From positions 894,001 through 958,000 of the forward strand of contig NZ_CP094226.1 of assembly GCF_022749195.1 (NCBI RefSeq): DNA of 64,000 nucleotides, in the 5' to 3' direction. The translations under genes and the position numbers were made by a program. Source of the DNA: Streptococcus oralis (GTDB lineage: Bacteria; Bacillota; Bacilli; Lactobacillales; Streptococcaceae). Positions 49,640 to 55,852 of this stretch are shown piece by piece. The notes under the pieces are model-generated. The model was given only the letters and a program-made list of their open reading frames with translations. It was not told where the DNA came from and did no database searches. Numbering within the stretch: position 1 is the stretch's first letter; the number at the start of each line of letters is the position of its first letter.

Positions 49640-50725
49640 CTATTCTGGGATTTGTTGGGTGATACAGTGGATATTGCCACCACCTAAGAGAATATCTCTG
49701 GCTGGAATTCCTACGACCTTACGGTCTGGGAAACACTTACTGAGGATATCTAGGGCCACTTGGTCGTTTACATCCTCAAACTGGGGAACCAAGACAGCCT
49801 TGTTGGCAATATAAAAATTGACATAGGATGCTGCAAGGCGCTCGCCCTCATAACGCTCCTCTTCCCCTTCTTCATAGGTATAGCCTGATAAATCCTCTTC
49901 AGTGACAACCTGACGAATAGCTGGGATCGGAAGCTTATGAATAGTGAAAGGGTGACCTTTCGCATCCGTTTCCTTCTCTAAAAGGGCAAGGTCAGCTGCA
50001 GACATGGCATACTGAGGATCGCTTTTGTCGTCTGTCCAAGCTAGAACAAGCTCTGCAGGACCAACAAAGGCAACAACATTGTCAACGTGTTCATTGGTTT
50101 CGTCCTGATAAATACCATAAGGAAGCCAAATAACTTTTTCAGCTCCAAGGCTCTCTAATAAGGTGTTTTCGATTTCCTCTTTAGTCAGATGGGGATTGCG
50201 TCCAGGACTGAGTAAGCAGCTTTCAGTCACAAGAATGGTTCCTTGACCATCGCTGTGTATCGCTCCACCTTCCAGTACAAAAGGTTTAGCATCATAAACA
50301 GGCATCTCTAAGACTTCTACAAAGCGACTGGCTACTTGGTCATCGGCTTCATAGTCTTGGTAAAGACCGTCAACAGCACCACCCCAAGCATTGAAAGACC
50401 AGTCTACTGCCAACTTTTCTCTCTTATCATTGACAAGAATCGTCGGACCTGTATCACGAGCCCAGGCATCATTGGTGGGAATATCTAAATAAACGACCTT
50501 GTCTCCAAGATAGGATTGGGCTTCAGATAGATAGTCCTGCTCCACCAAAAGGTAAACCCTTTCCCCTTGGGCTATGGTCTCAATAATCTGGCTAAAGGCC
50601 TTCTTAGCCGCTTTTCCTTGAAAGGGCCATGAACCTGGTCGAGTTGGCCATATCATGAGGGTACCATGATGGGGTTCGTACTCTGCTGGCATACGATAAC
50701 CTGCTTTTTTCGGAGTTTCTATCAT
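49640..50725 (-). CDS. aguA: agmatine deiminase
   Basis: AguA converts agmatine to N-carbamoylputrescine and ammonia. The 361-residue guanidino-group-modifying enzyme shows [68 protein letters not shown] and the C-terminal nucleophile Cys354 in [16 protein letters not shown]. Length and all motifs match streptococcal AguA. It overlaps the nspC gene by 4 bases (ATGA). In this context it works biosynthetically from SpeA-made agmatine, not in an agmatine catabolic operon, because no agmatine-putrescine antiporter or carbamate kinase is nearby. Confidence 0.96.
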
Positions 50726-51849
50726 GATAATCTCCCTTTAAAGTCTTGATAGCCGAAGGCTTTGACTAAGCTGCAGTCTCCCTGCTCGTCCATAAGATAG
50801 AGACTTGGCAAGCCAATACCGTTAAAGGTATTATTTTTGACAAAAGAATAAATGGCCATGTCTTCGAAATAGAGTCTGTCACCGATTTGGACTGGATTTT
50901 CAAAGCTATAATCGCCAATCACATCACCCGTCAGACAGGTATTGGAAGAAAGTCTATAGGTATGGGATTTTTCCTGAGCTTCAAAGCCATTTCTCAAAGG
51001 TGGACGATAGGGCATCTCAAGTACGTCTGGCATATGGCAGGTCGCGGACGCATCTAAAACTAAGATATCCATACCGTTTTCGACAATGTCCAATACTTCA
51101 GTTGCTAGATAACCCGCATTGAGCGCAATAGCTTCACCAGGCTCGATATAAACTTCAAGATTGTAAGTTTCTCGGATACGCTTGATTTCAGAAATCATCA
51201 AATCCACATCATAGTCTTCTCTCGTTATGTGGTGTCCTCCACCCATATTGAGCCATTTAACTTGATGTAAGTAGGGACCAAACTGAGCTTCTACAGCTTT
51301 CAAAGTTGTCTCTAAATCATCCGCCCCCTGCTCGCAAAGGGTGTGAAAATGAAGACCATCTACTAAGTCCAGCAAATCGCTTGGTATCTTGTCTAGAGTA
51401 ACTCCAAAACGAGATCCAGGTGCACAAGGGTCATAGAGCGCGTGGTCTCCTTGAGTTGAACACTGTGGGTTGAGGCGCAAACCGACACTAATGCCAGCCT
51501 CTCGACAACGAGGACCATGTTTACGCAACTGTCTCTCTGAGTTGAAGACGATATGATCCGTTATTTCCAGCAATTCCTCCAAGTCTGCATCCTTGAAAGC
51601 AGGTGCAAAGACATGGACTTCCCCCGGGAATTCTTCTCGTGCTAGTTTGGCCTCATAGATACCACTTGCAGTTGTACCAGATAGGTACTCGCTAATCAAG
51701 GGATAGGTTTTATAAAGAGAATATGCCTTCTGGGCAAGCAAAACCTTGCAACCGGCTTCTTCTTGAACATACTGTAGAATGCGACAATTCTCTTCTAATT
51801 TTCCTAAGTCAATGACATAGGCTGGTGTGGGTACTTGTTCTAACTTCAT
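50722..51849 (-). CDS. nspC: carboxynorspermidine/carboxyspermidine decarboxylase
   Basis: NspC decarboxylates carboxyspermidine (or carboxynorspermidine), the last step of the aspartate-semialdehyde route to spermidine. The 375-residue PLP enzyme belongs to the alanine racemase-fold decarboxylases: [18 protein letters not shown], the PLP lysine Lys41 in [26 protein letters not shown], the substrate-binding [13 protein letters not shown] and [12 protein letters not shown] with the reactive Cys. It shares one base with the dehydrogenase upstream and 4 with aguA downstream, so all are co-translated. Confidence 0.93.
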
Positions 51850-53108
51850 TAGTCCACCATTTGTGGATTTTCAACCACAACCCATGGCAAGCCGTACTCA
51901 TTCAAAGCTTCCATGAATGGATCTGGATCCAATTCTTCAAGGTTGTAAACTCCAGGTTGTTTCCAAGTTCCGTTCATCACTAATTTGGTCCCAATCATGG
52001 CTGGAACGCCTGTTGTGTAAGAAATTGCTTGTGAACCAACTTCTGCGTAACATTCCTGATGATCACAAACATTGTAGATATAGATAGTCTTTTCAACACC
52101 GTCTTTGACACCTGTAAAGATACAGCCGATATTGGTTTTTCCAACAGTGCGTGGGCCAAGGCTTGCAGGGTCTGGAAGCAAGGCTTTCAAGAATTGAATC
52201 GGAACGATGTCTTTTCCATTAAAGTTAATAGCATCTGTACGAAGGAGACCAACGTTTTCCAAGCATTTCATATGCGTTAGATAGGATTGGCCAAAAGTCA
52301 TAAAGAAACGAATCCGTTTGACACCAGGAATGTTTTTGGCCAATGATTCAATTTCTTCATGGTGAAGGAGATACATGTCTTTTTGTCCAACCTGAGGGAA
52401 ATCATACTCACGCTTGATTGACATGGCTTCCACTTCGACCCATTTTCCATCTTCCCAGTAAGAACCTGGCGCAGAAACCTCGCGGAGGTTGATTTCTGGG
52501 TTAAAGTTTGTTGCAAATGGATAACCGTGGTCACCACCATTACAGTCTAAAATGTCGATATAGTGGATTTCATCAAAATAGTGTTTGAGAGCATAAGCTG
52601 AAAAGACACTGGTCACACCTGGGTCGAAACCAGAACCGAGAAGAGCAGTTAAGCCCGCTTCTTTGAATTTCTCCTGATATGTCCATTGCCATGAGTAGTC
52701 AAAGTAAGCTGTAAAACCAAGTTCCTTGCAGCGTTTTTCATAAATGGCACGCCATTCTGGGTCTTCTGTGTCCTCAGCCTCATAGTTGGCGGTATCGATA
52801 TAGTGGACACCTGTTGCCAAGCAAGCATCCATAATTGTTAAATCTTGATATGGTAAAGCTACGTTCAAAACAGCTTCTGGTTTGTAGCTATCAATTAAGG
52901 CAATCACTTCTTCAACCTTGTCAGCGTCAAGGGCAGCTGTCTCAATCTTTGTACTTGTTTTACCTTCCAGTTTAGCCTTCAAGTCATCACATTTTGACTT
53001 GGTACGGCTAGCAATCATAATCTCTGTAAAGGTTTCGCTATCTTGGCAAATCTTTGAAATAGCAACTTGGGCAACGCCCCCACATCCAATAATTAGTAAA
53101 CGACTCAT
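51849..53108 (-). CDS. carboxynorspermidine/carboxyspermidine dehydrogenase (saccharopine dehydrogenase family)
   Basis: It condenses putrescine (or diaminopropane) with aspartate semialdehyde and reduces the imine with NADPH, giving carboxyspermidine for NspC. The 419-residue protein starts with the Rossmann loop LLIIGCGGVAQVAISKI, has VLNVALPYQDLTIMDACLAT and HYIDTANYE in the middle, LLGSGFDPGVTSVFSAYAL, and ends in a family-typical C-terminal domain. Often annotated as saccharopine dehydrogenase or Lys1, but the adjoining nspC identifies the polyamine role. RBS AAGGAAAA precedes it and overlaps speE by 4 bases. Confidence 0.92.
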   Translation of the reverse strand: MSRLLIIGCGGVAQVAISKICQDSETFTEIMIASRTKSKCDDLKAKLEGKTSTKIETAALDADKVEEVIALIDSYKPEAVLNVALPYQDLTIMDACLATGVHYIDTANYEAEDTEDPEWRAIYEKRCKELGFTAYFDYSWQWTYQEKFKEAGLTALLGSGFDPGVTSVFSAYALKHYFDEIHYIDILDCNGGDHGYPFATNFNPEINLREVSAPGSYWEDGKWVEVEAMSIKREYDFPQVGQKDMYLLHHEEIESLAKNIPGVKRIRFFMTFGQSYLTHMKCLENVGLLRTDAINFNGKDIVPIQFLKALLPDPASLGPRTVGKTNIGCIFTGVKDGVEKTIYIYNVCDHQECYAEVGSQAISYTTGVPAMIGTKLVMNGTWKQPGVYNLEELDPDPFMEALNEYGLPWVVVENPQMVD

Positions 53109-53965
53109 TTTTTTCCTTCCTCTTCTTCTAAAATGTCCTCAACATACTTGGGCAACATAAAGGCTCCCACATGTAAGTTTGCAGTATAGTATTCTGTGAA
53201 AAGCTGGCGTTTTTTCCAGCCTTCCTTGTCAAAATCTTTGACAGGGTGGTATTTTTTCGATGCAAATCCAAACAACCAATAGCCCGCTGGACTGGTTGGG
53301 ATATGGGCCTGATAAACCCGACTGATTGGAAAGGCTTGATTGACCTTGCGGTGCATACTTCGGCAAGCTGACTCATCCTCGTCAAAGAAGGGACTCCCAT
53401 GCTGATAGATCATGATGCCATCTTCTTTGAGAGCTCTGTAACTGTTACCGTAAAATTCCTTGGTAAAGAGCCCTTCCGTATGTCCAAATGGATCTGTCGC
53501 ATCGTTGATAATGATATCGTAATCATCCTCACAGTTTCTCAAAAATCGCAGTCCATTTTGGTAGTAAATGGTGACACGAGGGTCATCTAATCCAGCAGCA
53601 AAATCTGGGAAATACTCACGACAAACCTCAACCAGCATTTCATCTGGTTCAACGATATCGATTTGCTCGAGTTCAGGATAGAGCGTTAATACTTGGGCAA
53701 CACCGCCGTCGCCACCCCCAATAACCAATACTTTCTTAGGATTAGGATGGACAGCCATGGGTACGTGGACGGTCATTTCATTGTAAACAAAATCATCTGC
53801 ATCTGAAAACAAGACATGCCCATTTAAGATCAATATCTTTCCAAAAGCTGGCGTGTCTAAGACTTCTATATCCTGCCATTCACTCTTACCAGCGTAGAGT
53901 TGCTTGGCTGTTCTCAGGGACAGTTTCACATCTGGAGTATGAACTTCAGAAAACCATAAATCCAT
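53105..53965 (-). CDS. speE: spermidine synthase (aminopropyltransferase)
   Basis: SpeE adds an aminopropyl group from decarboxylated S-adenosylmethionine to putrescine. The 286-residue protein has the full fold: N-terminal strand domain with LDTPAFGKILILNGHVLFSD, MAVHPNPKKVLVIGGGDGG (Asp86), EPDEMLVEVCREYFPD, and the catalytic loop IIINDATDPFGHTEGLF. Decarboxylated SAM needs a SpeD-type enzyme, none of which is in this window, while the dehydrogenase-decarboxylase route to spermidine is next door. It starts immediately after the speA stop with no gap and overlaps the dehydrogenase by 4 bases. Confidence 0.93.
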   Translation of the reverse strand: MDLWFSEVHTPDVKLSLRTAKQLYAGKSEWQDIEVLDTPAFGKILILNGHVLFSDADDFVYNEMTVHVPMAVHPNPKKVLVIGGGDGGVAQVLTLYPELEQIDIVEPDEMLVEVCREYFPDFAAGLDDPRVTIYYQNGLRFLRNCEDDYDIIINDATDPFGHTEGLFTKEFYGNSYRALKEDGIMIYQHGSPFFDEDESACRSMHRKVNQAFPISRVYQAHIPTSPAGYWLFGFASKKYHPVKDFDKEGWKKRQLFTEYYTANLHVGAFMLPKYVEDILEEEEGKK

Positions 53966-55426
53966 CTAGTTCTCCTTTCTCTTAATGACGTTGATATGAT
54001 TGACCTCTGGATCTTCCGTCCCTTGGAGGGAGCAACCACGTTCCTTGGCAAATTGGATATAGTCTACAATTTCTCGTGTAATGCGTTCACCTGGTGCTAG
54101 GATTGGAATCCCTGGAGGATAGCACATGACAAATTCCCCACAGACTTGTCCAACAGAATCATCCAAGGTTAAACTTTTTCTTTCTGAATAGAAGGCTTCT
54201 TGTGGAGACAGCACCAACTCGGGCTGGATATATTCACCAGCAATCAAGTCCTTCCCATCTCTCGAGTAGAGCCTCTTGATGTCAGCCAAAGCACCGACTA
54301 AGCGCTCGATGTCTTGGATGCGGTCACCGATTGAAATATAGGCCAATATATTGCCAATATCCCCGAATTCAATCTGAATATCGTATTCGTCTCGTAAGAG
54401 GTCATAAACCTCTATCCCTGTTAGCCCAATACCCTGAGTGTAAACGGACAGCTTGGTCACGTCAAAATCACAGACGGACACTCCGTCTATTAACTCTTTT
54501 GAGTAGGCATAATAGCCACCGATAGCATTGATTTCACGACGAGCATACTCGGATAGCTCAATGACTTTCTCAAAAGACTCTTTCCCACGAAGGGCTAAGT
54601 TACGACGAGAAATATCCAGACTAGCCATCAACAAGTAAGAGGCTGATGTAGACTGGGTCAGGTTGATGATCTGACGAACGTACTCAGGATTCATCTGTTC
54701 CCCGATAAGCAGGATGGAACTTTGAGTCAAACTCCCACCAGACTTATGCATAGAGACCGCCGCCATATCAGCGCCAGCATCCATAGCAGACAGTGGCAAT
54801 TTATCTGTAAAATGCAAATGCGCTCCATGGGCTTCATCCACTAAAACCAGCATGCCCGCTTCGTGAGCCATCTCTGTCAATCCCTTAAGATCTGAACAAA
54901 TCCCATAGTAAGTAGGATTGTTGATTAGGATAGCTTTAGCATCTGGATGTTCCTTAATGGCCTGGGTAGCCCGGTCATTTTCAAGACCTAAAGCGATGCC
55001 GATTTTAGGATCCACACTCATCTCGATATAGATGGGAATGGCACCACATAGAACCAACGCATTGATAGCAGATTTGTGGACATTTCGTGGCAGAATAATC
55101 TTATCTCCTGCCTTACAAGTCGAAAGAATCATAGTTTGAACTGATGAGGTTGTTCCTCCAATCATGAGAAAGGCATGGGCTGCACCAAAAGCATCCGCAG
55201 CCAATTCCTCAGCATCCCTGATAATCGAAATGGGATGGCCTAGATTATCCAAGGGTTTCATCGAATTGACATCAATGCCAACACATTTTTCTCCTAATAG
55301 TTCGACAAGTTCTGGATTTCCCCGTCCACGCTTGTGACCTGGCACATCAAAGGGGACAATCCTTTTCTTGCGTAGCTTGACCAAGGCCTCATAAATTGGG
55401 GCTTGGTTTTGATCTAACTTCTTCAA
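53966..55426 (-). CDS. speA: arginine decarboxylase (aminotransferase-fold Orn/Lys/Arg decarboxylase)
   Basis: It decarboxylates arginine to agmatine, the entry step of the operon. The 486-residue fold-type I PLP enzyme lacks the wing domain of the large inducible decarboxylases. Landmarks are VPFDVPGHKRGRGNPELVE, IGGTTSSVQTMIL, LLVDEAHGAHLHF-like LVLVDEAHGAHLHF, Lys228 (PLP) in AVSMHKSGGSLTQSS and a C-terminal domain. Older annotations call it lysine decarboxylase (Cad), but AguA and AguB downstream make arginine the logical substrate. The start is a TTG at 55426 with AAGGAG 6 bases upstream. The 5' side is a long structured leader with a terminator. Confidence 0.9.
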   Translation of the reverse strand: MKKLDQNQAPIYEALVKLRKKRIVPFDVPGHKRGRGNPELVELLGEKCVGIDVNSMKPLDNLGHPISIIRDAEELAADAFGAAHAFLMIGGTTSSVQTMILSTCKAGDKIILPRNVHKSAINALVLCGAIPIYIEMSVDPKIGIALGLENDRATQAIKEHPDAKAILINNPTYYGICSDLKGLTEMAHEAGMLVLVDEAHGAHLHFTDKLPLSAMDAGADMAAVSMHKSGGSLTQSSILLIGEQMNPEYVRQIINLTQSTSASYLLMASLDISRRNLALRGKESFEKVIELSEYARREINAIGGYYAYSKELIDGVSVCDFDVTKLSVYTQGIGLTGIEVYDLLRDEYDIQIEFGDIGNILAYISIGDRIQDIERLVGALADIKRLYSRDGKDLIAGEYIQPELVLSPQEAFYSERKSLTLDDSVGQVCGEFVMCYPPGIPILAPGERITREIVDYIQFAKERGCSLQGTEDPEVNHINVIKRKEN

Positions 55427-55429
55427 GAC

Positions 55430-55489
55430 TTACTCCTTTACCATATTTTTAGCACCTCAAGAAGATAAAGGCGCTAAAGGTTGACTTAT
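55430..55489 (-). other. spacer between leader terminator and speA, with hairpin
   Basis: TTTAGCGCC pairs with GGTGCTAAA (one G-U) around TTTATCTTCTTGA, just before the ribosome site. No convincing promoter is seen in these 60 bases, so speA may depend on read-through of the leader terminator. Confidence 0.5.
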
Positions 55490-55518
55490 GAAAAAAGAGC
55501 AGGTTTTCACCTGCTCTG
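55490..55518 (-). terminator. terminator at the 3' end of the speA leader RNA
   Basis: On the minus strand AGAGCAGGT pairs perfectly with ACCTGCTCT around GAAA, followed by TTTTTT. Confidence 0.92.
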
Positions 55519-55817
55519 CAATCTTCTGACGTGTGTATTTTGGTTTCTGTTGAGTATGTCTGTTCCTGATGTTTCCTAACTCTCTAGTAGCAAATATTAC
55601 GTACTTTATTGATCGTTTCACAAGATGACGTGTGCTTTCACCACACTAAAATTTATGAATTAGGACAAGCGTCCTAACATCAACTTATAAAAGTAGGCTT
55701 TTAACCCTATCAATAATGTGGCTTTTTAACCACGCTTCGGCATTCAACCCTGCCTGTCCGTAGGCATTTTTTACTCGGGTTTATATTTGCTAGAAAACAT
55801 CATCTCATTTTCTAAGC
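55490..55817 (-). ncRNA. large structured leader or noncoding RNA upstream of speA, family unknown
   Basis: About 328 nt on the minus strand, from a strong promoter to a strong terminator. Two distant segments pair twice: TAGCAAATAT (55792-55783) with ATATTTGCTA (55597-55588), and TGATGTTTTC (55802-55793) with GGAAACATCA (55576-55567). Together they form a roughly 20-bp helix that closes a 185-nt interior. Inside are AACCC/GGGTT around TGCCT-acggac-AGGCA, GTGG-ttaaaaag-CCAC, TAGG-gttaaaag-CCTA, TTAGGAC-gctt-GTCCTAA and GTGTG-gtgaaag-CACAC. No conserved open frame is seen. It does not look like tmRNA, RNase P RNA, T-box or known riboswitches. It could be a free RNA or a leader that controls the polyamine operon. 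Confidence 0.7.
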
Positions 55818-55823
55818 CTTATA

Positions 55824-55852
55824 ACTATATCATGTTTATAAGAGCTTGTAAA
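55824..55852 (-). promoter_or_regulatory. promoter of the speA leader RNA
   Basis: On the minus strand TTTACA (55852-55847), 17 bases, then TATAGT (55829-55824) preceded by TGA, giving an extended -10. Start expected near 55817. Confidence 0.8.

Follow-up and report, generated by a model that had tools for sequence, protein, structure and literature searches.

The window, by which we mean the whole 64,000-nucleotide stretch of Streptococcus oralis DNA analysed here, carries on its minus strand a polyamine operon that is preceded by a structured RNA. The genes 3′ of this RNA lie in the order speA-speE-CASDH-nspC-aguA. The first of them, speA (53966..55426), has a TTG start and is the ortholog of SP_0916, an arginine decarboxylase according to the available text of two reports (PMC7531197, PMC7990898); its product reached no cut-off in a comparison with NCBIfam. 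The same comparison supports speE (53105..53965) as a polyamine aminopropyltransferase, nspC (50722..51849) as carboxynorspermidine decarboxylase and aguA (49640..50725) as agmatine deiminase, and CASDH (51849..53108) was labelled carboxy(nor)spermidine synthase/dehydrogenase from a score of 408 bits against NF043000, which is below the cut-off of 800. The leader RNA (55492..55818) is 327 nt long, with a start placed from the -10 element and a length equal to that published for M7/srn235. Near its 3′ end is an intrinsic terminator (55496..55517), a stem-loop with a 9-pair stem and a U run after it, and the same hairpin occurs in aligned relatives. The speA start codon lies 69 nt 3′ of the terminator stem and is preceded by a Shine-Dalgarno-like AAAGGAG (55433..55439). 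Upstream of the RNA is a promoter, TTTACA-17-TATAGT with a TG extension before the -10 (55824..55852), and a similar site is found in relatives. Both this promoter and the perfect 9-bp terminator had been described in the original prediction, and both are present.

Judged only by its hexamers, the promoter does not exceed chance level (four sites seen in the region versus 5.0 expected). Single hexamer scans are weak evidence, and our argument rests instead on consistent position across relatives. Among 82 unique sequences of the streptococcal form of the RNA, which we call type A, a promoter-like site lies just 5′ of the RNA in 75 and within the gap between terminator and speA in nine. In 75 of these sequences, the start of SpeA's AP[IV]Y motif lies 68-132 nt past the terminator, and in three it is farther away (172, 214 and 606 nt). 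The motif was not found in the remaining four: three of them lack speA, and in the fourth, L040, the RNA match and the SpeA match are 56 nt apart. With a promoter before the RNA, a terminator before the gene and second promoters scarce, the speA operon must be transcribed through the terminator. As inspected by eye, a 54-codon GTG frame (55621-55457) crosses alignment indels in relatives. An upstream peptide, AUGCCGAAGCG (MPKR), was rejected because its length varies among relatives and its ATG is absent in L073, also by eye. One locus (L094 in G238) has an insert of about 200 nt that separates the first hairpin strand of its leader from the remainder, together with an enlarged gap before speA that contains a promoter-like site.

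The leader RNA folds with a predicted energy of -88.4 kcal/mol (z -4.25), which none of 100 shuffled sequences equalled. This value and conservation upstream of speA bear out the proposal of a complex structured RNA before the polyamine operon. Of the two long-range complementary pairs noted earlier, one is the outer closing helix P1, which joins GATGTTTTCTAGC (55801-55789) to GTTAGGAAACATC (55580-55568) over 13 bp in individual folds, and the other is P1a, in which the nearly invariant GCAAATAT (55790-55783) forms 8 bp with ATATTTGC (55597-55590). Individual folds of the RNAs of eight other species place closing helices at the same position, with the register of the outer helix shifted in one clade. 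At the 5′ end, TAGAAAA (55814-55808) can pair instead with part of the P1 5′ strand as a local hairpin that competes with P1, and strands resembling this hairpin are also present in relatives. By inspection, no conserved antiterminator was found; the P0/P1 alternative is confined to the 5′ end. Within the closing helices, a hairpin of AACCC and GGGTT around GCC-UACGGACA-GGC (55746..55781) is followed by a conserved mini-hairpin, GCCGAAGC (55734..55741), and by hairpin H2 (55718..55733), where two of four pairs show two-sided changes. Alignment supports helix H3, between UUAUUGAU (55709..55716), whose UUAUUG is common to the type B leader described below, and AUCAAUAA (55606..55613). It also supports hairpin H4 (55693..55708) with its conserved loop UUAAAAG and, along with comparison to type B, helix H5 between UUUUAUAAG (55684..55692) and CUUGUGAAA (55616..55624). 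The remaining elements are a variable hairpin, H6 (55660..55677), seen in folds and relatives, and the aligned hairpin H7, GUGUG..CACAC (55630..55646). A loop GGUUAAAA(A)GCC said to be common to two hairpins stood up in part: the second copy (55707-55695) is conserved with small changes, and of the first (55733-55718) only the stem is retained in relatives. In three loci (L073, L074 and L075, from G166, G230 and G176), the tip of H4 or, in L074 and L075, of H2 is widened by insertions to 141-168 nt (about 140 nt for H2) with the stem kept. Apparent tandem copies in G166 and G230 were rejected, as the double matches are a single RNA split by such an insertion.

An alignment of type A (A1) and its covariance model (R1, 16 sequences and 37 pairs) were used to evaluate pairing across relatives. 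In A1, 97.9% of cells pair, compared with 34-54% in slid versions. Two-sided changes occur in five pairs, a count reached by one of 500 shuffles, and the covariation score is above all 500 shuffles; the number of further pair types was not above shuffles (60/500). A purpose-written, tree-aware null with 60 simulations returned three column pairs at E 0.05, and among them only one corresponds to a modelled base pair; this pair belongs to H4, and the other two are non-pairing columns within H4. The power of the tree-aware test is low because the sequences are strongly conserved.

We compared the window with Rfam, and no family reached its threshold; tmRNA and tRNA are absent. The original prediction had likewise set the RNA apart from tmRNA, RNase P RNA, 4.5S RNA, T-box and catalogued riboswitches, and the Rfam comparison that it proposed gave no strong match. 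RF02440 stayed below its threshold, at 28.5 bits (E 0.004; cut-off 37.2) over 46 nt (55782-55737), most of which is the AACCC..GGGTT hairpin. A resemblance to the lysine riboswitch, based on the motifs GAGUAA and GCCGAAG, was rejected, as there was no Rfam match. RF02440 (SpF59_sRNA, ldcC RNA) is filed as a gene, and its model covers 54 nt, a single hairpin region on the 5′ side. On 13 related loci, it scored at or above its cut-off in eight, comprising seven Streptococcus copies (42.5, 42.3, 41.3, 39.8, 39.8, 39.3 and 38.4 bits) and the copy in genome G578, and below it in five. In 14 control genomes, RF02440 gave some match in six, Lactococcus lactis among them, with one over the cut-off.

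The RNA does correspond to a catalogued pneumococcal transcript. M7, also named srn235, F59 and Spd_sr49, spans 327 nt in TIGR4 (869478-869804) and was found in 385 of 385 genomes, according to the available text of a 2025 report that still lists it as a candidate sRNA (PMC12323649). In the accessible part of an earlier study, F59 lies between SP0915 and SP0916 on the plus strand, and lung Tn-seq fitness was 0.05 for both srn235 and SN20 (PMC3395615). The intergenic place between SP0915 and SP0916 (speA), the strand and the 327-nt length agree between these RNAs and ours. When aligned to an S. pneumoniae contig (L146), the window RNA is identical at 319 of 326 positions. The leader RNA is therefore not wholly new, being a catalogued pneumococcal sRNA that RF02440 models in part. 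The earlier description of an unknown family thus holds in that no Rfam family matches at threshold, but not in that the locus is that of srn235/F59/SN20/Spd_sr49 and RF02440 covers 54 nt of it. In the portions of the literature available, srn235/F59 is published as a candidate sRNA, and its leader role, fold, terminator logic and wider family are unstated. What is new is the association of the RNA with speA across Streptococcus, the type B leader and a bridging copy in G578.

The distribution of type A follows that of speA. A DNA search found the RNA in 62 of 147 Streptococcus genomes, and R1 matched 120 of 284; across the order, R1 matched 22 of 345 genomes sampled from 79 genera, all of them Streptococcus. 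SpeA matches (E up to 1e-20) were present in 119 of the 284 Streptococcus genomes. The RNA and a close speA occur together in 117, which is every genome with a close speA. Two genomes with a 63%-identical SpeA (G026 and G219) have no R1 match. Conversely, R1 found no RNA in 164 of the 167 Streptococcus genomes without a close speA. The RNA is thus not kept independently of its neighbour gene, as a trans-acting sRNA might be, since speA is absent from only three of the 120 genomes that carry it (G015, G110 and G269), in which the RNA is intact. In G110 and G269, the RNA is followed by a short element whose junction is common to both (148/150 nt identical) and which holds a frame that we take to be transposase-like. 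The G110 RNA is identical to that of the speA-bearing G014 at 347 of 351 positions, and from this near-identity and the common junction the loss of speA looks recent. In G015, the intact RNA is accompanied by a second terminator-like hairpin at the contig end, and the genome has no SpeA match. Seven genomes (G067, G099, G109, G120, G143, G166 and G228) keep the leader while their speA match is split or has an internal stop; in G120, part of the leader's core is missing as well. A search with an exact type A pattern gave 99 stretches in named genomes, 77 in Streptococcus and 22 elsewhere; the latter, of which none scored above 15.6 bits with R1, appear to be chance matches and were set aside. 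Phages, plasmids and viral contigs gave no match to type A or type B, with exact patterns used in the viral scans. Where a search covered more than 40 genomes, its filters were stricter, and weak matches are lost at such settings.

A second leader, type B, lies upstream of divergent SpeA genes and is strongly conserved among ten loci. Its alignment contains 48 pairs and is 97.9% paired, with seven two-sided changes that none of 500 shuffles matched; further pair types were not above shuffles (287/500). At threshold, no Rfam family matched type B, RF02440 included, and when the limit was relaxed to E 5 for three type B loci, the matches were weak and unrelated. A model of the type B core (R2) found an eleventh locus in G313 (158.9 bits), six matches in 223 genomes of the order, all upstream of speA, and three matches upstream of speA in 220 genomes of the class, plus a weak one in G578. 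We evaluated 13 divergent speA operons, two from Streptococcus and 11 from the 345-genome order sample (SpeA E up to 1e-120). Type B precedes 11 of the 13, namely both Streptococcus operons and nine of the 11 others. The two operons without it are from one genus, in which speD precedes speA; this pair has no R1 or R2 match, and no NspC match within 10 kb. SpeE and CASDH follow type B in all ten loci checked and NspC in nine, the contig ending in the tenth. In the two Streptococcus genomes concerned (L110 and L088), both the speA operon and its leader are of the kind that other genera have, which suggests transfer.

Type B has the same overall arrangement of promoter and terminator. A script identified an intrinsic terminator in ten of the 11 loci, and in the other (L215) one with a longer loop is visible by eye. 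A promoter-like site precedes the RNA in eight of 11 loci, once without the TG, and occurs in none of ten gaps between terminator and gene. From terminator stem to the ATG start codon is 26 nt in L110, the corresponding distance is 33-55 nt in L213, L216, L222 and L215, and other gaps are longer; in L214, about 800 nt with repeated blocks, as judged by eye, separate terminator and speA. The 5′ arm of the terminator includes ACUCAAG or ACUCAGG in six of 11 loci (L222, L223, L214, L088, L220 and L215) and lacks it in L213, L216, L219, L221 and L110. This motif echoes the invariant CGACUCAAAU inside the RNA and, judged from sequence, is a possible switch element.

Direct comparisons of the two types gave mixed results. 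R1 found nothing significant in type B (best at the RNA 7.3 bits, E 0.66). On ten type A loci, R2 overlapped the RNA core in six (L045 20.7, L001 19.1, L034 16.2, L076 15.2, L042 12.4 and L081 11.9 bits), with a best off-target score of 16.2 bits, and Smith-Waterman alignment of A against B placed two of 24 pairs above all 200 shuffles. The link between the types therefore rests mainly on G578, a single genome (84% complete) from another order of the same class. Its RNA scores 87.2 bits with R1, 30.2 bits with R2 and 61.9 bits with RF02440; the 5′ half is type A-like and the 3′ part (UAAGAGUGGUAAAAGUA..CUAUAUAGACUCU) type B-like. Two further weak R2 matches in this genome, which adjoin frames that are presumably rpsP/rimM-like and rRNA-methylase/recN-like, were taken as chance in that they have no R1 support. 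Beyond the order, R2 was applied to the 220 genomes of the class and R1 to G578 alone, which makes the range of type A a lower bound. The G578 RNA is followed by a terminator-like hairpin, seen by eye, and then by CASDH-nspC instead of speA, which indicates that the regulated unit is the spermidine pathway and not speA itself.

Where the original prediction left open a leader or an independent RNA, the evidence favours a leader. A conserved folded domain stands before a metabolic operon, and a terminator that could serve as expression platform stands between promoter and speA, as in riboswitches and attenuators. We think it probable that the RNA is the 5′ leader of a spermidine-synthesis operon and acts as a transcription attenuator with polyamine feedback. 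RNA polymerase would initiate about 390 nt before speA and produce the folded RNA; it would usually halt at the terminator, releasing the free 327-nt RNA that is catalogued elsewhere as an sRNA, and read-through would yield the operon mRNA. The folded domain would sense polyamine status, spermidine being the first candidate and other polyamines next, with plentiful polyamines favouring termination. We infer a regulated termination step, a polyamine signal and direct binding of polyamines by the RNA. Polyamine feedback fits most of the published expression data, as far as the accessible text of the reports goes, which we saw make no link to the RNA. In a potABCD mutant with reportedly low polyamines, qRT-PCR showed speA increased 16.9-fold and speE 14.4-fold, a change not seen by RNA-seq (PMC8540371, in part). 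A speE mutant has more arginine decarboxylase, and a putrescine-synthesis deletion reportedly lowers expression of spermidine-biosynthesis genes (PMC7990898, in part). The RNA-seq result and this last effect count against the attenuator reading, as do the failure to find a conserved antiterminator, the three genomes with an intact RNA and no speA, the further pair types and the tree-aware test, and the size of the RNA, which is large for a riboswitch.

A cis-acting attenuator might instead sense another signal, such as arginine or agmatine, a protein or a processive antitermination factor. Arginine is the substrate of the operon's first enzyme, and the lack of a visible antiterminator helix would fit an RNA that acts through a protein or the polymerase. 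However, the genes that follow the G578 copy are CASDH and nspC, none of them for an arginine decarboxylase, and the effect of the speE mutant, as given in the available text of PMC7990898, points to the end product, and we regard this alternative as unlikely. We give slightly less credence still to an independent, trans-acting RNA with a constitutive terminator, in which speA would be expressed by leaky read-through and the pairing with the gene would be historical only. Its presence in several pneumococcal sRNA sets and its candidate status as late as 2025 would suit such a role, as would the strong lung Tn-seq effect (these in the portions of the reports available), its intact state in three speA-less genomes and the failure to find an antiterminator. 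Yet R1 finds no RNA in nearly all Streptococcus genomes that lack a close speA, and the speA loss in G110 and G269 looks recent. Moreover, the operon behind type B in other genera is again this one, and the G578 copy stands before genes of this pathway. Insertions in the region may also have polar effects on speA, and these could underlie the Tn-seq result.

If polyamine feedback through the leader is correct, an RNA long screened as a possible pneumococcal virulence sRNA would be a control element of the polyamine operon, and the strong Tn-seq effect could then reflect polyamines. The leader would also supply a mechanism for speA feedback, of which we found no description in the available text of the literature. 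A more specific reading, which we advance tentatively and expect to fail somewhat more readily than to hold, is that the leaders form a new class of large spermidine riboswitch that is unrelated to the SAM-I-derived one. This class would have two architectures, type A in streptococci and type B in other genera, with an intermediate in a further genus, and would attenuate operons of the carboxyspermidine pathway.

The type B leader is a conserved structured RNA without a match in Rfam 15. In the available portions of three structured-RNA surveys (PMC11109978, PMC2864571, PMC8632094), the window leader is not described, and the accessible open-licence literature yielded no report of a speA leader RNA. 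The odc1 uORF and potE motifs (PMC8632094, in part) are also leaders near polyamine genes, but the genes differ, and it is by the genes in their descriptions and not by structure that we set them apart. The reported spermidine riboswitch is a variant of the SAM-I aptamer, and its main text mentions neither Streptococcus nor speA (PMC10853860); the window has no SAM-family match. The likeness between the two is the proposed signal, and if spermidine is indeed sensed by the leader, the streptococcal RNA would represent a second design by which natural RNAs sense polyamines.
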